The translations under genes and the position numbers were made by a program. The notes under the pieces were generated by a model that searched no databases, was not told the DNA's origin, and worked only from the letters and a program-made list of their open reading frames with translations. A stretch of DNA of 64,000 nucleotides, taken from Snodgrassella gandavensis (GTDB taxonomy: Bacteria > Pseudomonadota > Gammaproteobacteria > Burkholderiales > Neisseriaceae). The DNA is taken from the NCBI RefSeq assembly GCF_914768025.1, contig NZ_CAJZCE010000007.1, positions 1 to 64,000 of the forward strand, in the 5' to 3' direction. Position 1 is the first letter of the stretch, and every line of letters begins with the position of its first letter. Below, one piece after another: positions 26,977 to 64,000 of this stretch.

Positions 26977-27004
26977 AAAAGAGCCCCACTTGGGGCTCTT
27001 TTTA
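26977..27004. terminator. Bidirectional terminator
   Basis: An 11-bp stem (26977-26987 with 26992-27002) with ACTT loop and T runs on both strands. It can end the decayed cassette copy read from the right and the TA remnant read from the left. Confidence 0.85.
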
Positions 27005-27072
27005 CAGCTTTAATCTCACAAAGACTTTGCAGCTTGTTCCCGCTCATATCGTGCCATATCATCATCAAATTA

Positions 27073-27342
27073 TTATTTTTCCTGATTAATTCTTTCAACA
27101 ACAGCGAAATAATCAGTTCCTTGCAAGTAAGATGGTGCTAATTCGGGACACAAGTTATATACAAGCATATTTATATTGATCATATTGCCTAAAGCTGTAC
27201 CACATGCGTGAACAGTTAGATCAAGGTAAAAATCATATTAATGCCGAAGAACAAGGGTAAATTGATCAAGAGTCTTACCTAATTCACTAGCTCTCTGATT
27301 AATCCCAACTAATTGATCATCAAAAAAACTAGGTTTGTCCAT
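27073..27342 (-). pseudogene. Decayed copy of the 101-residue cassette partner (B')
   Basis: Read on the minus strand from ATG 27342, it aligns with the intact gene at 28025: ‘FTLVLRH’ then an in-frame TAA at 27238-27240, then ‘DLTVHACGTALGNM’, ‘LVYNLCPELAPSYLQGTDY’ against ‘LVYSLNPELRPSYLQTTDF’. It ends with a TAA at 27073. It lies 5 bp after the stop of the decayed copy of the Cys-rich gene, the same order and spacing as the intact pair. Confidence 0.85.
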
Positions 27343-27347
27343 ATTTA

Positions 27348-27473
27348 TTACCAATGATAATTAGCCGCCCCGCCAAGTAAGTCAAAAATACCACCACTAT
27401 CAGCACCCAAGCAATACATATAAGCCGCATAACACCGATGGTAATCTATGTTTGGCTGAACAGAGTTTTTAAT
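27348..27473 (-). pseudogene. Truncated copy of the twin C-x6-C protein gene (A')
   Basis: Minus-strand reading ‘QPNIDYHRCYAAYMYC’ to ‘GIFDLLGGAANYHW’ and stop corresponds to the C-terminal third of the intact protein at 27707 (‘IPNIAYHQCYAAFRYC’ to ‘GGAANHHW’). The signal peptide and first Cys pair are missing; similarity stops near 27470, beside a repeat motif at 27481-27500. Confidence 0.85.
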
Positions 27474-27706
27474 ACTCATGCTGGTTTTAGTTGTCCTGAA
27501 ATAACGGTAGAGAACAGGTTGAGCGTGCGGCAGGTTACTAACCAAGAGAGAACTAAAAAGTTGAGATTGTGCAGAGCCATGATAGAGATTATGACGAACC
27601 GAGCATGTGACAAAATTGAAACAAAATAAATTTTAACGTATTGACTTATAATTTAATTTAATTTATTATAAATTTACTTATTTACCAGCAAATGGGAGGA
27701 ATTTTG
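27474..27706. other. AT-rich junction between the inverted cassette copies
   Basis: About 230 bp between the divergent decayed and intact cassette copies. It should hold the promoter of the intact pair. It contains a 20-nt motif at 27481-27500 seen again at 36422-36441, and a 15-nt string at 27551-27565 seen also at 26575-26589. Confidence 0.5.
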
Positions 27707-28018
27707 ATGTTAAAGCGTTTAATTTCTTTATCAATACTGGCAGTTTTAAGTATATCCGCAGTAACGGCTACCGCTGCTGATCAAAAGCATTCTAGTGTAA
27801 CTAGTATATTGAGTAGTAAGAAAGAAAGCCAAAATAGAGAATCACTTATGCGGCTGACACCAGGAGAATTAAGACATTGTATGAATGAATATAACAGGTG
27901 TCAGAGTGGCCTTATACCTAATATAGCCTATCATCAATGCTATGCAGCATTTAGGTATTGCCAAGGCCAAAATGGAATTTTTGACTTACCAGGAGGTGCC
28001 GCGAATCATCATTGGTAA
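27707..28018 (+). CDS. Secreted small protein with twin C-x6-C motifs (A)
   Basis: A 103-residue protein of unknown family. Residues 1-24 are a clear signal peptide (‘MLKRLISLSILAVLSISAVTA’-type). The mature part has a Ser/Lys-rich linker and then four cysteines at 58, 65, 78 and 85 in the pattern C-x6-C-x12-C-x6-C, suggesting a disulfide-stapled helical hairpin, ending ‘GGAANHHW’. GGGAGGA lies six bases before the ATG. It is co-transcribed with the 101-residue gene 6 bp downstream, and both have a decayed inverted copy nearby. A toxin-immunity or envelope role is possible but unproven. Confidence 0.85.
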   Translation: MLKRLISLSILAVLSISAVTATAADQKHSSVTSILSSKKESQNRESLMRLTPGELRHCMNEYNRCQSGLIPNIAYHQCYAAFRYCQGQNGIFDLPGGAANHHW

Positions 28019-28024
28019 TGGATT

Positions 28025-28330
28025 ATGAATAAACAAGAAACACAGTTAATCGAGATTGAAAAAAAAGCTGATGAGCTTATGCAGGCAATAAATGCTTTTG
28101 CATTTGCTCTTCGCCATGAACATCATTTTTTCCCAGATATAACTGTTAGACTATGTGCTGAGGCCATACACGATATTTCTAATATATCTGCTCTTGTTTA
28201 TAGCTTAAATCCTGAATTGAGACCATCATATCTACAAACAACTGATTTCTCTAATGCACTTGAGGAGGTTAAAGAACAATTAACTTGGTGCTTTCCTCCT
28301 TGTACAAAAAAGCATGTAGAACAAGAATGA
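28025..28330 (+). CDS. Small cytosolic cassette partner (B)
   Basis: A 101-residue protein without signal peptide or membrane segment, predicted mostly helical. ‘EKKADELMQAINAFAFALRHEHH’-type N-terminal helix (approximate), ‘LCAEAIHDISNISALVYSL’, and a Cys-containing tail ‘WCFPPCTKKH’. I recognise no family. It is invariably paired with the twin-Cys protein in both copies here. A size and location compatible with an immunity or regulatory protein, but this is only inference. Confidence 0.8.
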   Translation: MNKQETQLIEIEKKADELMQAINAFAFALRHEHHFFPDITVRLCAEAIHDISNISALVYSLNPELRPSYLQTTDFSNALEEVKEQLTWCFPPCTKKHVEQE

Positions 28331-28334
28331 TGAT

Positions 28335-28396
28335 GAGCTAGTAGAGCTAAGAAAAAGCCCAGTTTGGATTTTTTCGTTGTTTAGCTGTACTAGCTC
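28335..28396. terminator. Long imperfect hairpin after the cassette
   Basis: Arms 28335-28350 and 28381-28396 pair at 15 of 16 positions. The 30-nt loop pairs internally (GAAAAA with TTTTTC). It lies 4 bp past the partner gene and ahead of the mob remnants, so it could end transcription from both sides. Confidence 0.6.
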
Positions 28397-28419
28397 AAAC
28401 TTAATCTGACAGAAACCAC

Positions 28420-28539
28420 CTACTCATCGGCATTACCTCGCAATAGCTTAGCGCCCTCCCTGCAGCGGTCACGCCCCAGCAAATAATTAACGGATCCAGC
28501 TCCGCCACCTTTCCCTCGATTAAAAAACTGAACAATCAT
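28420..28539 (-). pseudogene. mobA: Relaxase (MobA/MbeA) N-terminal fragment
   Basis: Minus-strand reading from ATG 28539: ‘MIVQFFNRGKGGGAGSVNYL’ followed by ‘LGRDRCREGAKLLRGNADE’ and TAG. This is the hallmark N-terminus of plasmid mobilisation relaxases (‘RGKGGG…VDYLLG.DR.REGA.LLRGDPDE’). Only 39 codons remain and the catalytic Tyr/His region is gone. It follows the mobC remnant with 2 bp between stop and start, the normal mobCA order. Confidence 0.85.
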
Positions 28540-28541
28540 AA

Positions 28542-28802
28542 TCAGCTTTCAAGATAGCCACGAACGGCATTTAATACCCGTTCTGTGGCTGCCAGATGGG
28601 TAATGATAGTAAGGACATCTAACTGGTTCACAGCACCAACCTTAACAACTCCATTAATGTTTCGGGCTATCTGGTTTAGATTGTTCCCGACACCCGCCAC
28701 CGCTCTAACCAATTCTGAGCGTATTTTTCTAGCTTGCAAATCATCAAATTATTCTCTTATTAACTTAATAATCAGCTGCTTATCTCTTTTTTGTTTTGTC
28801 AT
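28542..28802 (-). pseudogene. mobC: Mobilisation protein MobC, interrupted
   Basis: From ATG 28802 on the minus strand: ‘MTKQKRDKQLIIKLIRE’, an in-frame TAA, then ‘FDDLQARKIRSELVRAVAGV’ and ‘GNNLNQIARNINGVV’ to the stop at 28542. Both the ribbon-helix-helix-like start (RDKQLII.L) and the GNNLNQIAR signature of MobC relaxosome accessory proteins are present. Apart from the nonsense codon the gene is complete, indicating fairly recent decay. Confidence 0.85.
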
Positions 28803-29324
28803 AATGCCGTTCCGGCTACAAAAGGCTTTTATTGTGATCTAGGTGGTATCTCAACAGTGGCCAGCCTGAAGTAACCTCTTTTTTGCTGCACAAAGTTACC
28901 AACAATTTAAATGTAACCAGAAGTTTAAGAGGGTTGAGAGGCCTCCCCTCACAAGGCACCAAGCGATAGCTTTATCTAGCCTTGCCTTATTTATACGTAA
29001 ATATCATATTAAAGCTTAATTTTAAATATCAAGCTCAACTTGCCTCTCTTGTAAATGCTCTTGACACGCTTTTTTGAATAGCTTTTTTGTGCAAACTACT
29101 ACCCAACTTGTCCATTGTCAGCCAAATGTTAGCAACCTGGTTTATATCAATAGAGTAGCCATTAGCAATAAGTTACTTACACTCTGTAATGTGTTTGCAA
29201 TAGTATGGATATTTTTACCCAAACAAATAGTGATATTTCCCATATCATCACTATCTGTTTGCATTCAATAGTCCAACCAACAGAAACCACCCACCAACTC
29301 ACACCCACAGAGGATTACCAGAAC
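28803..29324. other. Region between mobC remnant and feoC
   Basis: About 520 bp with no convincing gene. In mobilisable plasmids oriT lies directly upstream of mobC, so a relic oriT could be in the first 200 bp, but no nic site was identified. A near-palindrome at 29221-29260 is listed separately. Confidence 0.4.
29221..29260. repeat. Near-palindrome upstream of feoC
   Basis: AAACAAATAGTGATAT (29221-29236) pairs with ATATCATCACTATCTGTTT (29242-29260) apart from a one- to two-base bulge and one mismatch. It could be an operator, a plasmid relic or a hairpin in the feoC leader. Confidence 0.5.
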
Positions 29325-29606
29325 ATGCTTATCACCGCAATTCGCGATTACCTCCTCACCATCGGACAAGCCAGCCTACAGGATTTAGCGCGCCATTTTC
29401 AGGTACAGGAAAGCGCCATGGAGCAAATGCTCGCCTTCTGGCTCAGAAAAGGCACCATCCGCCAGCTTACCCCCAGCCAGCCCGCCTGTAGCCAGAACAA
29501 ATGCAGCGACTGCTTCGCCTGCCCCGACGGCGTAAAAAAAATCTATCAGGCCACCACCAGCCCGCGCACAACCATCCCCATCAACCCGATTAATCGCAGT
29601 GCCTGA
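29325..29606 (+). CDS. feoC: FeoC-like Fe-S winged-helix protein
   Basis: A 93-residue FeoC-type protein. The N-terminal winged helix (‘LLTIGQASLQDLARHFQVQE’-type, about 10-29) is followed by ‘MLAFWLRKGTIRQL’ and a Cys cluster ‘CSQNKCSDCFACPDG’ (C-x4-C-x2-C-x2-C) expected to bind an iron-sulfur cluster. FeoC is thought to tune FeoB activity or stability. AGAGG lies 11 bases before the ATG. It is separated from feoB by 2.8 kb of mobile-element debris, so co-transcription with feoAB is doubtful. Confidence 0.87.
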   Translation: MLITAIRDYLLTIGQASLQDLARHFQVQESAMEQMLAFWLRKGTIRQLTPSQPACSQNKCSDCFACPDGVKKIYQATTSPRTTIPINPINRSA

Positions 29607-30007
29607 ACATCCCATATTTAAGTCAAAACACATTAGCAAAGTGACAGCATAAATCAATACCAACAACATACAGCCAGAGCAAATACCGGCCAGCACCAGC
29701 AGTACAAAAAACAATATATTTGATAAATAAAAATAATTTACCCCAAACACCCACCACCACAAACCATCAGTACAGCCAAACACACCCCTCGGCACCAGCC
29801 GCCACAAACAAACATTACTGTGCAAACCCGCCATTTCCATTACAATCATCTTCTCAAACAAAATGGAAACAGCATCAACAGGCACCGCGATGCGCATCAG
29901 ACAGGCTACCACCGCTGCATCTATCCATCACCAGCAACAGTATAGCCCCGTCTGACCATAACCCCGCATCCGCACCACCCAACCTGCCTGTAGCAAAAGG
30001 ATAAACC
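29607..30007. other. Intergenic region upstream of glmS
   Basis: About 400 bp, C/A-rich on the plus strand, with only shadow-like open frames. Presumably the glmS promoter region. No ribozyme-like structure was recognised. Confidence 0.5.
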
Positions 30008-31849
30008 ATGTGTGGTATAGTCGGCGCCATTCGCGCTCAGGATAACGTAGTAGAATTTCTTACCAGCGGTCTTGAACGGCTGGAATATCGCGGTTATGAC
30101 TCCTCAGGCATCGCCGTATGGACACCAGCCGGCATCGAGCGCGTGCGCCGCGTCGGCCGCGTCAAACTCATGGAAGAAGCCGCACAGGCCGCCGGCCTCA
30201 AAGGCTGCCTTGGCATCGGCCATACCCGCTGGGCTACCCACGGCGGCGTTACCGAGCCCAACGCCCACCCGCATATCTCCAACGACTTGATTGCCATCGT
30301 CCACAACGGCATCATCGAAAACTTCGAAACCGAACGCAGCCGCCTCCAAGCACTGGGCTATGAATTTACCTCACAAACCGATACCGAAATCATCGCCCAC
30401 AGCATTCATTACGAATACACCCACACCAGCAGCGGCAACCTGTTTCAGGCCGTACAGACCGCATGCCAACGCTTTCAGGGTGCCTACGCCATCGGCGTTA
30501 TCGCCACAGACAACCCCGACCAACTCATCGCTGCACGCATGGGCTGCCCCCTGTTGGTAGCACTGGGTGAAAACGAAAGCTTTATCGCCTCCGACGTCTC
30601 CGCCGTTATCGCCTATACCCGCCGTGTCGTCTTCCTCGAAGATGGCGACATCGTCCAGCTATCCACACAAGGCATCGACACCCTGCGCGACAAACACAAC
30701 CAGCCGGCACAGCGCGAAATCAAAATGTCCGAGCTGTCACTAGCCTCCCTCGAACTGGGGCTATACAGCCACTTCATGCAGAAAGAAATCCACGAACAGC
30801 CCAAAGCCATCACCGACACCGCCGAAGTATTTCTCGTCGGCGGCTTTGAGCCAGAAAACTTTGGCGCCAGCGCCGCCAGCATCTTCGAGCGCATCCGCAG
30901 CATCAAAATCCTTGCCTGCGGCACCTCCTACTATGCCGCCCTTACCGCGCGCTACTGGCTCGAAGCCATCGCCCAGATACCCACCGATGTCGAAATTGCC
31001 AGCGAATACCGCTACCGCAAAGTCATCACCGACCCCGAGCAACTGGTCATCACCATCTCCCAGTCCGGCGAAACCCTCGACACCATGGAAGCACTCAAAT
31101 ATGCCAAATCACTCGGCATACAGCACAGCCTATCCATCTGCAACGTCATGGAATCCGCCCTGCCGCGCGAAAGCGAGCTGGTACTGTATACCCGTGCCGG
31201 TGCCGAAATCGGCGTAGCCTCTACCAAAGCCTTTACCACCCAGCTAGTAGCCCTGTTTGGCTTGGCGGTTACACTGGGCAAAATGCGCGGGCTGGTTACC
31301 TCCGCAGAAGAAGAACAATACACCAGCGAACTGCGCCTGCTGCCCGGCAGCGTACAGCACGTACTCAACCTCGAACCGCAAATCGCCAGTTGGGCAAACC
31401 AGTTTGCCGCCAAAAACAACGCTCTCTTCCTAGGCCGTGGCATCCACTACCCCATCGCCCTTGAAGGCGCACTGAAACTCAAAGAAATCACCTACATCCA
31501 CGCCGAAGCCTACCCCGCCGGCGAACTCAAGCATGGCCCACTGGCACTGGTAGACCAGAACATGCCCGTCGTCGTCATTGCGCCCAACGACAGCCTGCTG
31601 GAAAAAGTCAAAGCCAACATGCAGGAAGTAGCAGCACGCGGCGGCGAACTCTTCGTCTTCACCGACCTTGACAGCGAATTCACTGCCGGCGCAGGCGTCC
31701 ACATCATCCGCACCCCGCGCCATATGGGCGTACTCTCCCCAATCGTCCACACCATACCAGTACAGCTACTGGCCTACCACACCGCACTGGCACGCGGCAC
31801 CGATGTGGATAAACCGCGTAATCTGGCGAAATCGGTGACGGTGGAGTAG
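30008..31849 (+). CDS. glmS: Glutamine-fructose-6-phosphate aminotransferase (isomerizing)
   Basis: A 613-residue enzyme forming glucosamine-6-phosphate. The mature N-terminus ‘MCGIVGAI’ supplies the catalytic Cys, ‘[11 protein letters not shown]’ and ‘GHTRWATHG’ belong to the glutaminase domain. Two SIS domains (from about 290 and 460) include ‘[13 protein letters not shown]’ and ‘[17 protein letters not shown]’. It ends ‘NLAKSVTVE’, the segment whose DNA is the TnsD recognition site for Tn7. AAGGA precedes the ATG by six bases. Confidence 0.97.
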
Positions 31850-31888
31850 GTATTACTTTCTCATCGCAATTTATTGAAATATAAAAAA

Positions 31889-31925
31889 TCCAGTGATGCC
31901 TTTAAAAACATCACTGGACTTTTAA
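31889..31925. terminator. Terminator downstream of glmS
   Basis: A 10-bp perfect stem (31889-31898 with 31909-31918) followed by CTTTTAAAA on the plus strand and TTTTTTAT on the minus strand. It serves converging glmS and the large accessory gene. Confidence 0.85.
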
Positions 31926-31992
31926 AATTAACTTAACAAATATTTAAAGTTTAAATTAAGATATATTTAATCCAGATTTAAAATATACTAAA

Positions 31993-34900
31993 TTAATCTT
32001 GATTTAAAATATGAGTTTTAATCCAACTATCTAATTTTTCGATACAGACAAATTTAGTTGGTACATCATCAGGTGGGGCAACCATCCAAAAATGTAAATC
32101 CTTACTAATATATAATTCTATATTAATCTCTGGTTTTTCAGAAACAGGCCATCCAAGCAACTCAAGCATACGCTGTCTATTTTTCTGAACAAATGCGCGC
32201 CGTTTGGCGATTTTCTTCATATGTGCATCTTTTTTACTTCCAAATATTTCATCGCGTAAGCGGCGACTATCTTTTATAACAAAAGCTGGTTTATTATATT
32301 TACATTCAGCATATACTAAAACATTTATCTCTGGCCAATACACCAGTCCATCAAAATCGCCCACATCATCGAATCTCTCAGCTTTAAACCTGTCGTAAAA
32401 ATCCAAACCACCTACAACATATTGCGTATATCTCTTAAATATTTCAATAGTGTGTTTTTCCAGTTTCTTTTCTAGCTCAACTTTAATCCCATTTACATAT
32501 CGTTTAATATTAGGCCAGTTGAAATCTGCTGGCAAAAAGCCATTGTGTAAACTATTTATCCATATATTAGCGGTCTTAAAAGCTAATTCAGCACCCCAAT
32601 AAAATTTATTATTAATATAAATTAATGGCCGGAGAGAGTGCCGGTAAAGCCGCTTATTATGCTCCCAATATGGAACCTCTCCTTCATCCTGATTTTTACC
32701 ACTTAAACGAAGAATTTCTTTCTCTGATAAAGTTAAAAATTCTAAAATTGCGCGAGCCTCTTTTGATGAAGTCAATTTAATGTTTTTTGTAAAAACAGAT
32801 AATAAATCATCCAGACTAGCACTGTAAGAAAGAGATAGATTTTTAGATAACCCAAACTGAAAAGGCTGTGCCAAGATAGTTAAAGCACATAACAATTGTT
32901 CAAAATCAAAATTTAAATCTTTTTCGCATATTTGATTAAAGTTTTTATCTTCAACTAAATTATAACCTATCTCTAAACCACTTGTGTCATCATCTTCATT
33001 TACTCCCAAACCTAGACGATTTTCAGCATATTGTTGTTGAAATTGTGAAATATTATTTTCTAAATTACCTGAATAAAAAATCTTGGGAATATAATTTTCA
33101 TTAATGATTAAGCCACCAACAGCTATCTCATGATGTAAAACATCACTTGCTGAATTGAAAGTAAAATAGCATTCTACAAAACAATATAATTTTCTCAGTA
33201 TATCATCGTTAACTATTTCATGACCTTTAATAGGTAAGCTAACTACTTTTTCAAGTAAATATATGAAATACTTTCCTTTATCCAAAAATTCTTCTTTGGC
33301 TTCTTCAATTCTTTCAACTCGATTATAGTCTACATCTTGATTTAAGCTCTTTTTAATCATTGAAACATAGGTTCTCTCAGTAGCTAAAGATGCATTGATT
33401 TCTTCAATGCATCGTTTAATCATTTGCTCTTTATCTAATTTATGCAAACAAGATTCAATATAATTTCTTAAATACAGACAAGCTTGTTTTATTCTAAGTT
33501 TAGCGTCATCTAGTTCATATTGGCCAGGTTGTAAACCAATATCATGAAAAGCTTTAGCTATACTGTTTATTATATTCTTACGATCATTAGGAGTAACCAA
33601 TAGAGATTTTTCAGATAGAGGTGTATCAGTTATAGAATAATCTTTGGATATTTGAAATCTAGGTTTTTTTGGAGCTTGACCAAAAATAAGGTTAATAGAT
33701 TGCTCAGATAATATCTGCTTTTTATGTGCATAACACATTTTTAATACTTCCAATAAACATTTTATTTCAAATGAATTATCTTTAGCATTCAAAAGACTAT
33801 AAGCTACAACTTGAGGATTTACAGTCAAAATATAATAATTACTTTCTCTTACATCTACATTTGAGATTACTTTATCATCTATATTTATTACTTTTTTATC
33901 TGATTGTGAATCAAACAAGTGTTCTTTATCAATCCGACACTCAAAAACTATATGCTTTTCCTGCATTAAAGATATGCCAATTAGAATATCTTTATGTTGG
34001 TCAAAACTATCAATTAACAAATGAGCAAATAAATTTAGTTTATCTAAATTTTCGAAATTCAATTTCTCGTCTGAATAAAATATTGCCTGTACTGTACAAG
34101 CCCCTATACATGTAGAAAAAAAATATGATTTTTTACCTATAGAACCTAATTGTTTTACCGAATCAGATTTTGTTTTAGTAATTAGCCATGACTGGTCGTT
34201 ATCGGGAAATCTTTCTGGCGCTTCATGCCAAAATTGAGCTAACTTTTTAAAGCGCCATTGATTTCCCCAATGTGGATAAATAAACACTATCTTTTTTTTA
34301 GATGAATAACCACTGAATAAAGTCCCCTTGGAATCACAATAGCTAGCATACCAGTCTACTTGAGATGCCATTGGATTGAAAAGCAAAGTTTGCGGATACG
34401 ATTCATTACACACCTCTTGCATATAATATTTAAACTGTTCAATTTCATCTATATTTTCCATTAAATCGTAGATTGAAATAAAATCAGCTAATGGTAAAAA
34501 TTGTGCCGGTTCTTGAGGTATATCCACAGAATATCTACCTAATTTTTTTTGTTCCAAAACCAGTGTAATACGAATATCATCCACACAATATTTTGATTTA
34601 CCGATTTCCTTTAAGTTTATTATTTGGTTATTTGGTAATCTAAAAAATATTTCTGCTTCTTTTTGCAACTTTATATAAATTTTGTTTGTTGCATTTACAG
34701 CAGCTTGATAAAAATTATGTTTACAATAACAGATTAAATGCAATAGTTTCTCTCCCCCGATAACACAACTAATTCTTAAATCTGAAATAATTTCTTTATC
34801 AATTTGTATAAAAATTGGTTCTCTACACCCATAAACATCTGCGAAACGTTTGTCTAAAAACTCAGCAATTTTTATATGGGGTAAATAAGAACTGTTATTT

Positions 34901-35763
34901 ATGTTTTTATTTGCCCAGTAATCAATTATTTTACCCGGTAATTGGCGTACTGATATCGGGATTAACAGTTCATCTGTTGACAAAAATATATAAGGTACAA
35001 TAAAACCTTCAAGAAAATTATTAACAAATTTTTTTTGAGTTAAATCTTTATAGGAAGTGCCAAATGATGTTATTAACTTGTCACTGTTTTCATTGACCCA
35101 TTTATTTATTTCCTGTCTTGTTTGTACCAGTGCTTTAGTACATGAATACCAGAAATTTTTCGGCGGCACTTCAACATATCCTTTTTCTGGTTGGGAGACA
35201 TCCACATCAGCAAAACCATCAAAGGAATTAATCATATAGCTTTGAATGGCAATGGCAAGATTCATATCTGCCAATGCCTCAGGGTTATCTGCAAAACTGA
35301 TACGAAATGATTCAATAAAATCCGGCACACGGTCAAGATTACTTCCATAGAAAATAGGCACAAATTCCGAACCAAGATGTACCTTAATTTGCCCCCAATC
35401 AGCTTGAAGAGAGTAGTCTTCTAAAGATGGAAATTCAGGCCATATTTTATAAAGCTCAGTAAGGAAAAAGCTAAATTCTTTGTAGTCTGAAATAGATTTT
35501 GCCTCTACTTCATCTTCGGATAGTTCCAGTAATATCGACCAAGCCAATGCATGTTTGGCGGGACTCGCAACATTCATTGGCCATAGTTCTGATACACTAA
35601 TCGCCAATGCTATATCTAAAAGTTTATATTGTCTGAATAATAATTTTATTTTATTAATACTTGATACGAATTGAATATCTTCTTTTTGTTGAATCATTGT
35701 TTTAAATATATTTTTTTCTTGATTTTCTCTACGTTTCCTTTTTAATCGAGCTTTCTTTCCCAT
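31993..35763 (-). CDS. Large protein of unknown family with C-terminal PD-(D/E)xK-like nuclease domain
   Basis: A 1256-residue, AT-rich gene beside glmS. The N-terminus is very basic (‘MGKKARLKRKRRENQEKN’). The middle about 1000 residues match nothing I recognise and are rich in Lys, Asn, Ile. Near the C-terminus, ‘GDFDGLVYW’ (Asp about 1138) followed by ‘VLVYAECKYNKP’ (Glu about 1153, Lys about 1155) gives the Asp…Glu-x-Lys arrangement of PD-(D/E)xK nucleases, with a helix ‘KKIAKRRAFVQKNRQRMLELLG’-like after it. AAGGA seven bases before 35763 sets the start. No helicase or methylase partner is adjacent. A nuclease-based defence function is my inference. Confidence 0.8.
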   Translation of the reverse strand: MGKKARLKRKRRENQEKNIFKTMIQQKEDIQFVSSINKIKLLFRQYKLLDIALAISVSELWPMNVASPAKHALAWSILLELSEDEVEAKSISDYKEFSFFLTELYKIWPEFPSLEDYSLQADWGQIKVHLGSEFVPIFYGSNLDRVPDFIESFRISFADNPEALADMNLAIAIQSYMINSFDGFADVDVSQPEKGYVEVPPKNFWYSCTKALVQTRQEINKWVNENSDKLITSFGTSYKDLTQKKFVNNFLEGFIVPYIFLSTDELLIPISVRQLPGKIIDYWANKNINNSSYLPHIKIAEFLDKRFADVYGCREPIFIQIDKEIISDLRISCVIGGEKLLHLICYCKHNFYQAAVNATNKIYIKLQKEAEIFFRLPNNQIINLKEIGKSKYCVDDIRITLVLEQKKLGRYSVDIPQEPAQFLPLADFISIYDLMENIDEIEQFKYYMQEVCNESYPQTLLFNPMASQVDWYASYCDSKGTLFSGYSSKKKIVFIYPHWGNQWRFKKLAQFWHEAPERFPDNDQSWLITKTKSDSVKQLGSIGKKSYFFSTCIGACTVQAIFYSDEKLNFENLDKLNLFAHLLIDSFDQHKDILIGISLMQEKHIVFECRIDKEHLFDSQSDKKVINIDDKVISNVDVRESNYYILTVNPQVVAYSLLNAKDNSFEIKCLLEVLKMCYAHKKQILSEQSINLIFGQAPKKPRFQISKDYSITDTPLSEKSLLVTPNDRKNIINSIAKAFHDIGLQPGQYELDDAKLRIKQACLYLRNYIESCLHKLDKEQMIKRCIEEINASLATERTYVSMIKKSLNQDVDYNRVERIEEAKEEFLDKGKYFIYLLEKVVSLPIKGHEIVNDDILRKLYCFVECYFTFNSASDVLHHEIAVGGLIINENYIPKIFYSGNLENNISQFQQQYAENRLGLGVNEDDDTSGLEIGYNLVEDKNFNQICEKDLNFDFEQLLCALTILAQPFQFGLSKNLSLSYSASLDDLLSVFTKNIKLTSSKEARAILEFLTLSEKEILRLSGKNQDEGEVPYWEHNKRLYRHSLRPLIYINNKFYWGAELAFKTANIWINSLHNGFLPADFNWPNIKRYVNGIKVELEKKLEKHTIEIFKRYTQYVVGGLDFYDRFKAERFDDVGDFDGLVYWPEINVLVYAECKYNKPAFVIKDSRRLRDEIFGSKKDAHMKKIAKRRAFVQKNRQRMLELLGWPVSEKPEINIELYISKDLHFWMVAPPDDVPTKFVCIEKLDSWIKTHILNQD

Positions 35764-35928
35764 ATCTTCTTCCTTCAATACATATTGACAAATTTCAAGC
35801 GCTACACAAAACTAAATTTATCATTATTCTACATAAATTAATTTTAGATAAGTCATTTATATACTATTTATAAATAAATAAATTTTTCTTAAGAATTTCA
35901 ATCAGTCTTATATATAATAAATACATAA

Positions 35929-35962
35929 AAACCCGCCATGACCAAACGTCATTGACGGGTTT
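35929..35962. terminator. Hairpin upstream of the large accessory gene
   Basis: AAACCCG (35929-35935) pairs with CGGGTTT (35956-35962) and an inner ATGAC/GTCAT adds pairs around a 5-nt loop. The minus-strand reading ends in TTTTTATG. It probably terminates transcription entering from the right. Confidence 0.6.
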
Positions 35963-36601
35963 GCAGCCGTACAAATTTTCAACCGACCTGTCTAATCGCT
36001 ATGCGTCGCTAATAGATACTTTTGGTACTGGTGGCAAGGCTTTCTATAAGGGTGAAGGAAACGGCGCTGAATTTGTGCATTCTTGGTTATCTACAAGCGG
36101 TACGCTAGCCGTAACAGGCTGGCACTGTAGCAACAGCTTATCTAGGCTGGGGTTATCCTACTTGCAGCAATTGTATTGCTTGCCTTTTCAGGCAAAGAAA
36201 CGTCCTAACAGAGTGATACCGCTTTGCGATGGCTTCGACATCTTATTTGGTACCATGCCAAGCCTGCTACTCCTTACTTATCCAGCCACGGCCTGAATCT
36301 GTACACTTGATGTAAAAGGCAGCGACAATAGCCACTGCATTATGTTTCTTCTTATACACAGATTTGCCGTCATTACCAATACAAAATAATGCTCACCAGA
36401 CGTTACCTTTCTGAATTAAAACTGGTTTTAGTTAACCTGAACTGCTGTTTTGGTAATTTACACCATAAAATTTAGATTATAATTTTGTATTGGAAAAATA
36501 AGCTTTAGTTTATGCACAGAATTTTTATGCTTATGTTAAGCAAGTCTGTGCAATATATATCATCAAACCATAAGTTTTATTTCAAATAAAGGCGATGCTG
36601 A
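35963..36601. other. Unexplained intergenic region, GC-richer at its left part
   Basis: About 640 bp without a credible gene. A 330-bp open frame on the plus strand begins inside the hairpin at a TTG and has no ribosome-binding site. On the minus strand about 36289-36405 reads protein-like ‘NDGKSVYKKKHNAVAIVAAF’ but lacks a start. It may be mobile-element debris; the motif at 36422-36441 is shared with 27481-27500. Confidence 0.4.
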
Positions 36602-38107
36602 ATGCAGTATGTTGAGACTAGCCAGAATGACAAATATCAGATTGCGATGTTGGCTTTTCTGGTCGCATTTTTTACTTATATTTGTGTTTACGGTTTTGAG
36701 CTTACGCACTTCGGTTTGTCGATAGATGAGGAATTTAATAACAATATTTCCCATACTATTGCTATTGGCCGATGGGGGCATGCTTTATTAAAAGCCAGTA
36801 TCTATCCTGAACCTTTTATTCCTTTTTATACTGAGATGCTGACCTTTATTTTATTGTCAGCTTCATGTGCGCTAATTGTTTATACCTTTTCCCTGAGTCT
36901 GAAACAAGCGCTTTTCTTTACGGTTTTATATGCTTCCTCCGCGCAGTTTGCTTATCAGCTCCAATTTCTCAATCAGTGTGATACGGTGGCCACAGCCATA
37001 CTGTTGTCGTCTATGGCTGTATATTTAATCGTTAGAAAGAATTCCTTTCTGCATACAGTCCTTATTCCGGCTTTGCTGTTAGGTTATGCTGTAGCCATTT
37101 ATCAGTCGATAATCTTTTTTTCTTATTCTTTATTGCTTGCCTATTTGTTGCTAGATATAGTCAGAGACACAGAAGATAGCAGGCATTTAAAACTGATATT
37201 CAGGTTAATAATAGCTTCAATTATCGGGCTAATCCTGTATTTTGTGCTGGGAGAATTAATCCTGAGTTATGACCATCTGCACTCAGAATCTTATTTAAGC
37301 GATATTGTTACCTGGTTTGATAAATCGTCCAAGCTGGCATTTAAAAAGATTAGCCGCTGTATCGAACATTATTTCACTCTTAAAGCTCCTTACGGGATGA
37401 ATACGTTTGTACTGGCTGTTATATTTCTGATCCTGCCACTGTTTTATCCGCTAAAAAGAAAAACAAGATATGGTTTGTATGCATTTTTAAATATCATTAC
37501 TTTGTTTTCCATGAATATAGTGGTTGGCAAGGATTTACCAGCCAGAACGATGACCAGCTTTGCTATATTTTTGGCCTCTGCTGGACTAATTGGTTTTATT
37601 GTTATCAGAAAAAATAAATATTTATGGGCGGTGGCGGCTTTTTCATTCCTGTACGGCATGGCCACGGTGAGTAATCTTTTTTATGCTGACTATATTGCCT
37701 ACAAAAAAGATTACCGGCTGGCTTCAGCCATTGCCAACGATATAGCTAAAAAATTAAATGTATCTTTGCAATCGCCGGTAAAAGTCTATTTCTTTGGCGC
37801 GCTGGATATTAAACGGGTAAACCGACCCAAAAATTCGGATATGTTCGGTGCTTCGTTTTTTAACTGGGATCATGGCAATTCCGGAAGAATTTCTGCATTT
37901 ATGAATAAGGCAGAAATAGCTAATATTGTTCCCGCATCCTATGATGAGATTAAATCGGCTTTAAATACGGTATATGCAGCGCCTGTCTGGCCGCAGAAAG
38001 GCAGTATTTTGCAGATAAAAGATGTGGTGGTGGTAAAACTGGGGCAGAATGTAGGTTACTGCCCGAATTGTGTTAAAGAAAATACCAAGCCTAAACAGTG
38101 TTTATAA
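36602..38107 (+). CDS. GtrII-type glucosyltransferase domain membrane protein
   Basis: A 501-residue polytopic protein with about ten hydrophobic helices. The region ‘LSIDEEFNNN’ and ‘AIGRWGHALLK’ near residues 41-65 and ‘QCDTVATAILLSSMAVYL’ match the Glucos_trans_II family, whose phage-borne members (GtrII) glucosylate O-antigen using a lipid-linked donor. The two acidic residues in the first periplasmic loop would be catalytic. Gene sits alone next to accessory DNA, consistent with surface-glycan variation. AAAGG lies nine bases upstream of the ATG. Confidence 0.8.
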   Translation: MQYVETSQNDKYQIAMLAFLVAFFTYICVYGFELTHFGLSIDEEFNNNISHTIAIGRWGHALLKASIYPEPFIPFYTEMLTFILLSASCALIVYTFSLSLKQALFFTVLYASSAQFAYQLQFLNQCDTVATAILLSSMAVYLIVRKNSFLHTVLIPALLLGYAVAIYQSIIFFSYSLLLAYLLLDIVRDTEDSRHLKLIFRLIIASIIGLILYFVLGELILSYDHLHSESYLSDIVTWFDKSSKLAFKKISRCIEHYFTLKAPYGMNTFVLAVIFLILPLFYPLKRKTRYGLYAFLNIITLFSMNIVVGKDLPARTMTSFAIFLASAGLIGFIVIRKNKYLWAVAAFSFLYGMATVSNLFYADYIAYKKDYRLASAIANDIAKKLNVSLQSPVKVYFFGALDIKRVNRPKNSDMFGASFFNWDHGNSGRISAFMNKAEIANIVPASYDEIKSALNTVYAAPVWPQKGSILQIKDVVVVKLGQNVGYCPNCVKENTKPKQCL

Positions 38108-60237: not shown

Positions 60238-63200
60238 TTAAATTTCACCACCTATGCCCTTAAACTTCTCAACCAAGTCAGCAATCTTTTTGAACACCTT
60301 TTGTTTTTTGGGTAAATATTGCGGATTAAGCGGGCTCATTTTGGGCAAGACTTCGTTCAGCTCCGTGCCGTTGTCAGTAGCATATTCACGCTTTAATGAG
60401 GATGCAATATAACGTTTAGCAGCAGCTTCATTTAAATTTTCATCACCAATTAATGCCTTAACCTCGGCTTGTTGCTGCTGTTGGGCATACTGATAAAAGG
60501 CATCAATCATACCGGCTTTATCAGCAATAGCATTTAAATCGGTATGTTGAATAAATTCAATAACCAATTCCTCCTTGGCACGATAGCCTAAACTGGCGCG
60601 GATTAAGCGCTGTGCATCTTCAACAATGACTTGTTTATTCTTATCTTGCTTGTTCTGCTCAAAAATTAATTCCAGAATATAATCCAAATTGATTTCTTGC
60701 GATTTTAATAAATCCACTTCAAAAACCACATCATCCCAATCAATGGTTAGCTGCTCCTGTTTTTCAGCGGCTTGTTGTCTATACAGCCAGTCACGAATAT
60801 CATGGTAAGTTGAACGGTAATTCTGGATCGCTCTTTCTGTTGGCATCTTAATCTTTTGCATCCGTTCAAAAGCTTCATCTGAAACATAATACTGCGCTTT
60901 AAACTGTTCAACCGCCTGTTTATCTGTTGTATCCAGCTGTTGCAATGCCTTTAAAGCGATATGTTCATCATAATTCTGTAATGCATTATCGGCACGTAAA
61001 TACTGGCCAAATAATTTAACAAACGCTTTTTTATCTTTTTCAGTAGTAATCTGATCCAGATGGGGAAAACGTTGCTGTAGCTCAGCCACAAGAGCTAAAT
61101 ATCCGCTATGGATTTCACCGGAAACCTCATCGGTGTAACCCTGCATATGTTCCTCATAACTTTTTTCTAATACCACATTCTGAGTGTTTTTTTGACCAAA
61201 TAGTTTGATGGCGTCAATGGTGGCTGGTTCTAAATCACGAAATGCCACAATATTACCGCAGACTTTGGTGTCATCATAGATGCGATTGGTGCGTGAAAAA
61301 GCTTGGATTAAGCCATGAAAACGTAAGTTTTTATCGACAAATAGCGTATTGAGGGTTGGCGCATCAAAGCCGGTTAGAAACATACCCACGACGATTAATA
61401 AATCAATTTCCTGCTTTTTAACGCGCAAAGATAAATCACGGTAATAATTCTGAAATTGCCCGCTGCTGACATCATAGTTAGATTTAAACATTTGATTGTA
61501 ATCATCAATCGCAGAGGCTAAAAACTCTTTGGCACTTTGATTCAACGCATTGGTTTCAAAGCTTTCATCAGCAATAGCACCAGCGGGGTCTTGTTGCTCA
61601 TTAGCCGCAAAGGAAAAGATAGTAGCAATTTTCAATGGTTTACTGGATGTTTCTTGCAGCTTTTTTAACGACTCATAATACAGCTTTGCCGCGTCCACAC
61701 TGCTCACGGCAAACATAGCATTAAAGCCTTTGCCGTTGCCATTTGAACGATGCGTTTTTTGTTTAAAACATTTTAGGATATATTGGCTGATTTGTTCAAT
61801 CCGTTTGGGATGCAGTAATGCTTGCTTATTTTCGGCGGCACTAAGTTTGTCCAGATTTTGCTCACATTCAATCGCTTTAAAATGCGGGCGTACATCATTG
61901 TAGTCGACTTTAAATTTAAGTACTTTTTTATCGCGAATAGCGTCGGTAATCAAATAGCTATGCAACTCACGCCCGAACACCGTAGCGGTGGTTTGTTCGC
62001 CAAACGCATTAGCGTCCAGAATTGGCGTGCCGGTGAAACCGAATTGATAGTATTTTTTAAACTTTTTCTTAATATTTTTTTGTGCTTCACCAAATTGTGA
62101 GCGATGTGCTTCATCAAAAATAAACACGACCTGTTTATTATAGATTGCTAAATCATCCTTAGCTTTTATCAGATTATTGAGTTTTTGAATGGTGGTGACA
62201 ATAATTTTATTATCCTGTTTTTCAATATTGCGCTCCAGTCCGGCAGTACTATCGGAACCATTGACACTGTCTTTTGAGAATTTCTGATATTCTTTCATGG
62301 TTTGATAATCCAGATCCTTACGATCCACCACAAAAAACACTTTATCAATAAATTCCAGATCGGTGGCCAGACGCGCTGCTTTAAAGCTGGTGAGGGTTTT
62401 TCCTGATCCGGTGGTGTGCCAGATAAAGCCCCCACTATGTGGGCTACTCCAGTTTTTGGCCTGATAAGCACTGATAATCTGCCATAAAATCCGCTCGGTT
62501 GCGGCAATCTGGTAAGGGCGCATAATCAATAAAGTATCATTGATATCCAGAACGGAGTAAGTGATTAAAACACTTAACAGCACACGACTGGCAAAAAAGG
62601 TGGCGGTAAAATCTTTTAAGTCGTTAATCGGTTCGTTTTCAACATTCGCCCAGTTTATGGTGAAATCAAAACTGGTTTTATCCCGCTTGGTGGTATTGGC
62701 AAAATACCGGGTATCGGTACCGTTTGAAATCACAAATAACTGTAGATATTTAAACAGGGAATTGTCATGATTAAAACTCTCTTTACTGTAGCGATGAACC
62801 TGGCCAAACGCCTTACGAATGGCAAGGCCACGTTTTTTAAGCTCCACCTGCACCAAAGGCAGACCATTAACTAAGATGGTAACATCGTAGCGATTAGCAT
62901 AACTACCAGTTTGCTGAAACTGGCGAATCACCTGTAATTTATTGTTGCTGAGGTTTTTTTTATCGAGCAGATAAATATTCTGAATATGCCCATCATCAAA
63001 CACAAAATCGTAGATATGATTATGGTGAATTTTACGACTTTTATCGACCATCGATTCATTCGGTTTATCCAGATACTCTAATACAAATCGCTGCCATTCC
63101 TCATCGCTAAACTGCATATTATTGAGCGTTTGCAACTGCACCCGAATATTGGCCAACAATTTCTGCTGATTATTCAGCTCAGGCAGATATTCATAACCTT

Positions 63201-63339
63201 GACGGCATAAATCCCGAATCAATTCGTTTTCTAATTCATTTTCCGTTTGATATCCAGCCGCCGGCTCTTCAAGCTTGGTGTAGTTATCTAAAATAATATA
63301 GTGATCGGTTTCGGCAATCGGGGTTGTGTAATTGACCAT
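60238..63339 (-). CDS. hsdR: Type I restriction enzyme R subunit (EcoR124I-like, type IC)
   Basis: A 1033-residue translocase/nuclease subunit, nearly colinear with EcoR124I HsdR. The N-terminal nuclease domain has ‘[21 protein letters not shown]’-type Asp…Glu-x-Lys (about 149-168). The motor has Walker A ‘[19 protein letters not shown]’ (about 307), ‘[16 protein letters not shown]’, DEAH box ‘[12 protein letters not shown]’, motif III ‘FGFTGTPI’ and motif VI ‘[11 protein letters not shown]’. The C-terminal helical part ends ‘KFKGIGGEI’. It cuts foreign DNA together with HsdM and HsdS, which must lie beyond the right edge. Confidence 0.96.
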
Positions 63340-63351
63340 CGTCCACTCCTG

Positions 63352-64000
63352 CTAGTTAAAATTGTAATTTTCGAGTAAATGATTCAGTAAAAAGGCAACA
63401 ATTTGTTTTTCAGGCTCAGAAGGCTCGGGCACCATTTCATTGGATAAGGTTGAATGACTGGTAAAATTGATTATGCGGGTTAAGTATACGTCTCTATCAT
63501 CAGGCAGCAAGTCTGACCAATGCCGATAGCCTAAAAAACAGGCGGTTTTTTCATACAGGTTACGTAATAGGGTAAAATGATATTTTTCAATTTTATTTTC
63601 TTTAATCGCTTCTTGCAGCAACTGTTTTAAATACAGATGATAGGAAAAGCTGTGATTTGAATCGCCTTGTTTGTTTTCTAGTTCAAAATAGCCATCTGCT
63701 AATCGTCTTAGAATATAACCGTTTGGCAACTTCAATTCATTATAAAGTACATTATAAAACAGTGAATTATGGGTAGTGATAATAAATTTAATATCAGATT
63801 CATTGGATTTGATTAATTGTGCAATATCCGCCGCCAACTGAATCAGATGATTCTCATCTAATGAGCTTACCGGATCATCAATAAAAATATAGCGTAATTG
63901 GTCAAACTCATTAGTAGAACGCTCGCTTTTTTCCGCAATATTGCGCTCGGCAATCACCAAACTAATCAAGGTGAAAAAAATACTCCAAATTAAATTATTT
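63352..64000 (-). CDS. prrC: AAA ATPase, PrrC-type anticodon nuclease candidate (partial, runs off right edge)
   Basis: Only the C-terminal 216 codons are in the window and no start is present. ‘YIFIDDPVSSLDENH’ is a Walker B/D-loop of the AAA_13 ATPases, and ‘KFIITTHNSLFYNVL’ is the H-loop. The C-terminal domain has ‘LLRNLYEKTACFLGYRHW’ and ‘INFTSHSTLSNE’. Arg, the Glu four residues later and the His 32 after that match the Arg320-Glu324-His356 triad of E. coli PrrC, which cuts tRNA-Lys when phage inhibits its type IC partner EcoprrI. The gene lies 12 bp before hsdR, where prrC sits in E. coli. Confidence 0.75.
   Translation of the reverse strand, partial: NNLIWSIFFTLISLVIAERNIAEKSERSTNEFDQLRYIFIDDPVSSLDENHLIQLAADIAQLIKSNESDIKFIITTHNSLFYNVLYNELKLPNGYILRRLADGYFELENKQGDSNHSFSYHLYLKQLLQEAIKENKIEKYHFTLLRNLYEKTACFLGYRHWSDLLPDDRDVYLTRIINFTSHSTLSNEMVPEPSEPEKQIVAFLLNHLLENYNFN

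Follow-up and report, generated by a model that had tools for sequence, protein, structure and literature searches.

A distant homologue of the anti-phage protein Upx, with a predicted PD-(D/E)xK nuclease core, in an exchangeable slot beside glmS in Snodgrassella

Gao et al. are said to have shown in 2020 that Upx confers protection against phage. Upx is represented by PADLOC PDLC02221, NCBIfam NF042954 and Protein Data Bank (PDB) entry 9wuf and, like the proteins described here, consists of one long chain of about 1230–1280 aa. A table of 'experimentally validated or predicted' mechanisms in PMC10855318 assigns Upx to nuclease activity, with reference to Gao et al. 2020, and PMC12629846 describes it as lying almost exclusively within one hotspot of Pseudomonas PAGI-1 islands. 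Searches of the open literature brought up no study dedicated to how Upx works, and none for 9WUF or for six protein accessions of the family introduced below. Here we analyse a 64,000-nt stretch of Snodgrassella gandavensis (GCF_914768025.1, contig NZ_CAJZCE010000007.1, positions 1 to 64,000; 'the window') and report that a gene on its minus strand, at 31993–35763, encodes a protein that profile comparisons identify as distantly homologous to Upx, whose structure has been solved (9wuf).

The assignment is carried by profiles of the family to which the window protein belongs. These matched PDB chain 9wuf_A, a 1272-aa protein with the molecule name 'Restriction endonuclease', at an expect value (E) of 1e-5 when built from five sequences, 2.3e-7 with six and 1.2e-10 with nine. 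The 481-residue segment of 9wuf that aligned to the family in turn matched the PADLOC Upx model at E = 2.2e-288, and two Salmonella plasmid records match this aligned stretch with 100% identity. For direct comparison we assembled five Upx proteins, from Bosea, Deinococcus and Sinorhizobium (all PADLOC Upx), from Salmonella (partial) and from G1204 (assigned by reading); here and below, G numbers denote genomes and L numbers loci. In hhalign the family gave 99.2% and 99.5% against the four proteins other than that of G1204, at 11–12% identity, and 99.4% (E = 2e-21) over 755 columns against all five, while all 19 controls (the Upx alignment once reversed and five times with its columns shuffled, MkoA and 12 unrelated proteins) stayed below 1%. 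A hidden Markov model (HMM) of the five Upx proteins, with E-values scaled to 178,000 sequences, recovered 8/8 family members at 2.6e-6 or better, the window protein itself at 2.6e-6, and matched 0/14 unrelated and 0/28 reversed proteins at E up to 10. Existing models also reach some members: NF042954, 'anti-phage protein Upx', matched five of nine at E up to 1 (best 4.4e-6), and the PADLOC Upx model, scanned over members other than L007 and L008, scored L006 at 2.2e-4, L046 at 1.8e-3, L042 at 5e-3, L015 at 6.9e-3 and the E. coli protein at 0.046. The eight full-length relatives of the window protein are 1237–1314 aa long, the longest with an uncertain start. About 1000 residues had initially been called unassignable, which holds for the single protein in Pfam, NCBIfam and PADLOC, but residues of about 430–1220 can be assigned to Upx once family profiles are used. 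As for Upx proteins at their own loci, the one in G1204 (L054:6782-10573) stands alone near thrC, and on a Deinococcus plasmid an Avs2-like protein is encoded directly upstream of another (L050:1533-5378).

The first-pass annotation had described a single very long, AT-rich gene of 1256 residues with a C-terminal GDFDG…AECKY arrangement (Asp 1138, Glu 1153, Lys 1155). Its coordinates and length are confirmed without change (an ATG-initiated frame of 1256 codons and a stop), as are the positions of the three residues; the G+C content is 30.7% as opposed to 45.5% in the remaining window, and the genome search found a single copy. D1138, E1153 and K1155 are identical in 9/9 family proteins, the window protein counted, and so the motif is not due to chance. 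Among eight family and five Upx proteins, G1135, D1138, E1153, C1154 and K1155 are identical in 13/13 and D1136 in 12/13; the GD-x-D...ECK core is thus common to both groups, with spacing identical to that of 9wuf. From these conserved residues and the homology to a solved protein we predict a restriction-endonuclease fold at the C-terminus. No confident match to a non-nuclease family emerged: the best others were at 0.062 in Pfam, 0.0067 in PHROGs and 0.034 in NCBIfam, the last a porin match of the window protein that we judged spurious, and the window protein by itself had no Pfam match at E up to 1 and no PHROGs match at E up to 0.1. Signs of a second activity were also sought. The Walker A pattern is absent from 6/6 homologues checked, no Pfam NTPase matched at E up to 1 across the family, and the sole methylase motif searched for, [DNS]PP[YFW], is absent from the window protein. 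No cognate methyltransferase was recognised beside the gene, whose neighbours by reading are glmS and a membrane protein. The parts of the gene and the adjoining hairpin are as follows.

31993..35763, minus strand: Upx-like gene, 1256 aa, ATG start
34474..35763, minus strand: N-terminal part, residues 1–430, 97% identity to the S. communis allele
35728–35763, minus strand: basic tail, residues 1–12, part of the N-terminal part
32539..34473, minus strand: central cassette, exchanged, residues 431–1075, 48–49% identity to the S. communis allele
31996..32538, minus strand: C-terminal part carrying the predicted nuclease core, residues 1076–1256, from sequence comparison
32299..32361, minus strand: predicted PD-(D/E)xK core, GDFD (1135–1138) to ECK (1153–1155), from gapless alignment to GDID...ECK of 9wuf
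31884..31923, minus strand: terminator-like 18-pair hairpin, located between glmS and the gene, from a hairpin scan

The N-terminus (MGKKARLKRKRR) is basic, as had been remarked, and M1, G2, K4, R6, K8, R9, R11 and R12 are identical in 5/5 aligned family members, an invariance that breaks upon adding L015. An alternative in-frame TTG lies five codons upstream of the ATG; we prefer the ATG because the conserved tail starts at M/V-G-K/R-K in the five sequences aligned first, although for two of them we picked the GTG or similar start ourselves. The basic tail (MGKKSREKRERR) is present in five family members but absent from three full-length Upx proteins (Bosea, Deinococcus and G1204), and the N-terminal third of the family falls outside the hhalign match to Upx. 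Of the flanking terminators proposed at first, the 18-pair hairpin (31923–31884) is there; however, the scan of the region found three hairpins where shuffles give 2.9, a number not above chance, and the inverted repeat on the gene's other side (about 35930–35962) was seen by eye and is absent from the scan output. Rfam gave no match in 27000–37000.

Among named relatives the nearest is the gene of S. communis LMG 28360 (L001, on the same contig as G1026), at 72% identity, and the two alleles differ very unevenly along their length. Synonymous divergence (dS) is 0.028 over residues 1–430 and 0.080 over residues 1076–1256, compared with 0.114 for glmS between the same strains, but rises to 0.98, with a nonsynonymous divergence (dN) of 0.40, over residues 431–1075. 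Both transitions are abrupt, falling close to codons 431 and 1077, and within the cassette the DNA encoding residues ~503–522 is again nearly identical. This pattern shows that the central 645 residues have been exchanged with a diverged allele, once; in the tree, the central parts of both Snodgrassella alleles still fall into one group. The wider idea that the central part is hypervariable throughout was rejected, as in other pairs the variability of the middle does not exceed that of the N-terminal part. A search for cassette exchange within Upx, using the Salmonella upx fragment, gave no DNA match in E. coli genomes.

The gene converges on glmS, the end of which is the attachment site of Tn7. 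We located the end of glmS in 13 of 14 Snodgrassella genomes and read the DNA downstream (the contigs of G1020 and G1021 end within 4 kb), which defines the following setting.

30008..31849, plus strand: glmS (named by reading), anchoring core gene of the hotspot
31850..35925, no strand assigned: exchangeable slot 3' of glmS, from DNA comparison between strains
36602..38107, plus strand: gene for a 501-aa membrane protein (by reading), other flank of the slot

The window gene fills the slot at 2/13 sites (the window's own genome, G000, and G1026). Mokosh fills it at another 2/13, as MkoA/MkoB in G1022 (PADLOC E of 0 and 2.4e-76) and by reading in G1023. One site (G1027) holds a Tn7-like set of TnsA, TnsB and TnsC with TniQ, from which it follows that the attachment site at the end of glmS is in use in Snodgrassella. 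By eye, G1020 carries a PAAR/Rhs-like gene there, with the same downstream DNA in G1021 up to the contig end, and G1025 and G1031 carry transporter genes. No additional gene precedes the usual next genes in G1019, G1024, G1030 and G1029, and in the first three of these the membrane-protein gene follows glmS directly with none between (as two open reading frames (ORFs) in G1030). S. communis aside, the DNA that the window shares with 11/11 other sites ends at the glmS stop codon, and the DNA shared with G1022 resumes at 35926; we therefore conclude that here one presumed defence gene replaces another. Mokosh takes the same slot and differs from the window gene in being a two-gene system with helicase, kinase and NERD domains, without hhalign relation to the window family. 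Two further observations concern this region. In one Snodgrassella genome (L041:659-6632) TnsABC and TniQ lie directly 3' of glmS and are followed by genes that look phage-like by eye. Between the slot and the membrane-protein gene lie about 670 bp (35926–36600) with a weak ORF only and no Rfam match, shared with G1022 at 85–86% and partly with G1021 and G1026.

The family gene is rare and patchy, and its relatives are sparse accessory genes, not core genes. Genome searches matched 3/369 genomes of the class, 3/300 of the order, 3/398 of the phylum, 3/150 of the family of G224, 2/247 of the order of G972 (one of which reads as Upx) and 1/31 of the order of G026; these draws overlap, and the window's own genome is counted in those of class, order, phylum and genus. 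Within the genus, 3/14 genomes matched and 2/14 remained after a match in G1025 (15.8 bits, E = 9.4e-4) was dropped as noise, no such gene being seen on reading the contig. The distinct genomes with a family member are G000, G1026, G224, G026, G443, G972, G1034 and G1082. In E. coli, 10 of 5426 complete genomes match by a 195-base stretch and the copy is full length. The E. coli proteins WP_000532863 and WP_000532864 (L065, L066) and WP_219396509 (L064) are direct, unnamed family members; over 1232 positions the L064 copy and the window protein share 38% identity, and their catalytic residues are the same. In trees of all three protein parts the E. coli protein clusters with its counterparts from G443 and G224, two genomes of the window's own order, a placement that fits horizontal transfer. 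Neither the phage nor the plasmid records matched the window protein, no phage record matched the E. coli member, and the viral contigs scanned contained no relative. Via relatives, the plasmid records yielded one copy, on Lactococcus pFI430. This protein (WP_014735040, 892 aa, beside IS981) is homologous over the central and nuclease parts (hhalign 98.5%; Upx HMM E = 2.4e-4), and differs from the family in being without the N-terminal part and in having Glu-Ile-Lys in place of Glu-Cys-Lys.

Nine loci had useful flanks (the window, L001, L006, L007, L008, L015, L045, L046 and L064), and were used for the neighbourhood check suggested with the first-pass annotation. PADLOC supports defence neighbours at three of them, those of G443, E. 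coli and G1034. In G443 and E. coli the neighbour is a NACHT protein that partially matches Avs1b and LmuA, and G1034 (L046:42-7908) is a dense defence island with PDC-M01A/B (Septu-like), LmuA/LmuB and a ThsB-like TIR protein. Reading revealed no defence neighbour in G026, G972 or Lactococcus, where no library was scanned and where PurL and MutS served as hhalign controls only. Neighbours in G224 are a SEC-C protein and a homologue, in two frames, of an E. coli 565-aa protein. The E. coli ssrA/intA island itself (L064:13645-25100) carries the family member, the NACHT protein (partial Avs1b and nuclease-model matches), a 482-aa protein and the 565-aa protein; the last two, unmatched in PADLOC (E up to 0.1), are candidates for further defence genes. 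In the window, a second defence locus had been placed at the right end, and one is indeed found 25 kb from the gene: an HsdR match (PADLOC REase_I) at 60238–63339 and, at 63352–63969, a protein of 205 aa whose match is to the C-terminal half of PrrC. Together (60238–63969, minus strand) they may form a PrrC/type I restriction locus.

Taken together, the homology to Upx, the invariant PD-(D/E)xK core, the accessory distribution and the exchangeable slot lead us to consider it quite probable that the product of the window gene is an anti-phage nuclease acting as a single protein, from a sister clade of Upx for which there is as yet no model; the original proposal of a candidate defence gene in an integration hotspot finds support at the level of sequence. 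Several observations count against this interpretation. By itself, the window protein has no PADLOC match at E up to 1, nor does its S. communis counterpart L001, and it does not find 9wuf as a single query. The PADLOC Upx model is silent in 14 Snodgrassella genomes, as it is in control genomes. When the search is reversed, the family HMM recovers just two of five Upx proteins well (G1204 at 2e-10 and Salmonella at 1.7e-9; Sinorhizobium 0.095, Deinococcus 0.32, Bosea unmatched at E up to 10), and as G1204 came from a family profile, its inclusion favours the local Upx HMM. Residues 1–428 lie outside the hhalign match to the five Upx proteins. The copies in G026 and G972 sit among genes reading as core genes, and the Lactococcus copy lies beside an insertion sequence. 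Finally, a role of the central part in specificity rests on one allele pair, since other family pairs show no extra variability there. We accordingly speak of an Upx-like sister clade, not of an Upx member by existing models, because neither the PADLOC model nor NF042954 (E up to 1) matches the window protein. 'Orphan' and 'new', the terms used at first, are apt in that no existing model assigns the window protein, but not in that it is a distant homologue of Upx.

As to how such a protein might act, we infer a single-chain, ATP-independent, phage-sensing DNA nuclease. Its N-terminal and central parts would recognise a feature of the invader, recognition would license the C-terminal PD-(D/E)xK domain to cut DNA, and cutting would stop replication or kill the infected cell; a swap of the central cassette would alter the feature that is recognised. 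Classical restriction-modification has a cognate methyltransferase and Avs/STAND proteins have a P-loop NTPase, whereas the window gene has no recognised methylase in or beside it and the six homologues checked lack Walker A. As no partner methylase marks self, our first guess for the invader feature is phage DNA, and a DNA trigger is slightly favoured over a protein trigger because self DNA would have to be spared without a modification partner and there is no NTPase switch. Avs proteins sense phage proteins, and it is possible, if less probable, that the window protein does likewise and then degrades DNA indiscriminately, as an abortive-infection nuclease. The N-terminal and central parts are large, of sensor size, the central cassette is exchangeable, and the NACHT gene adjoining the family gene in E. 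coli and G443 has its partial Avs1b match; the missing Walker A sets the homologues apart from Avs.

The same NACHT gene raises the question of whether the protein is one subunit of a system made up of the Upx-like protein (U), NACHT and the 482-aa protein, and incomplete when alone. The order U-NACHT-482 is common to E. coli and G443 (68.5, 70.8 and 61.4% identity) and tightly spaced, with 4 nt separating the U and NACHT genes and a 4-nt NACHT/482 overlap in E. coli (the 565-aa gene is present too in L064 and L066), and of 11 E. coli genomes with any match to the three-gene stretch, 10 contain 80% or more of its length. The Snodgrassella gene, in contrast, stands alone: tblastn (E up to 1e-4) found no NACHT or 482 homologue in the window, L001, L006, L007, L015, L045 or L046, and full-length copies without them keep the catalytic residues. 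Homologues of the 482-aa protein, the only one of the three searched there, occur on 16 plasmid records (nine at 52–60% identity; in most but not all, 'ATP-binding protein' is annotated under the match), yet searches of the same plasmid set with family members found only that of Lactococcus. An obligate multi-gene system is therefore improbable, and we take the NACHT pair for a common neighbour, not an obligate partner. Nor do we give much credence to a non-defence nuclease that is cargo or remnant of a Tn7-like element. The TnsABC/TniQ set of G1027 demonstrates that such elements use this very site, but no transposition gene was recognised beside the window gene, the protein is homologous to Upx, each genome draw holds few carriers, and elsewhere the family gene sits at unrelated places (the E. 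coli ssrA/intA island, the Lactococcus plasmid, and core-type genes in G026 and G972). An anti-phage nuclease remains our preferred reading.

These relatives show Upx to be one part of a wider, patchy superfamily that current family models largely miss, with members in E. coli, Lactococcus, Snodgrassella and further genomes of the order and class of the last. The E. coli copies make the family testable in laboratory strains, and the central segment is a concrete, swappable candidate for the recognition part. More speculatively, and with considerable doubt, the window protein may be a one-protein restriction-like enzyme that retargets by swapping a 645-residue cassette between a fixed N-terminal scaffold and a fixed nuclease, founding a new clade beside Upx. 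This would be, if true, a one-chain counterpart of the exchange of specificity domains in type I restriction.

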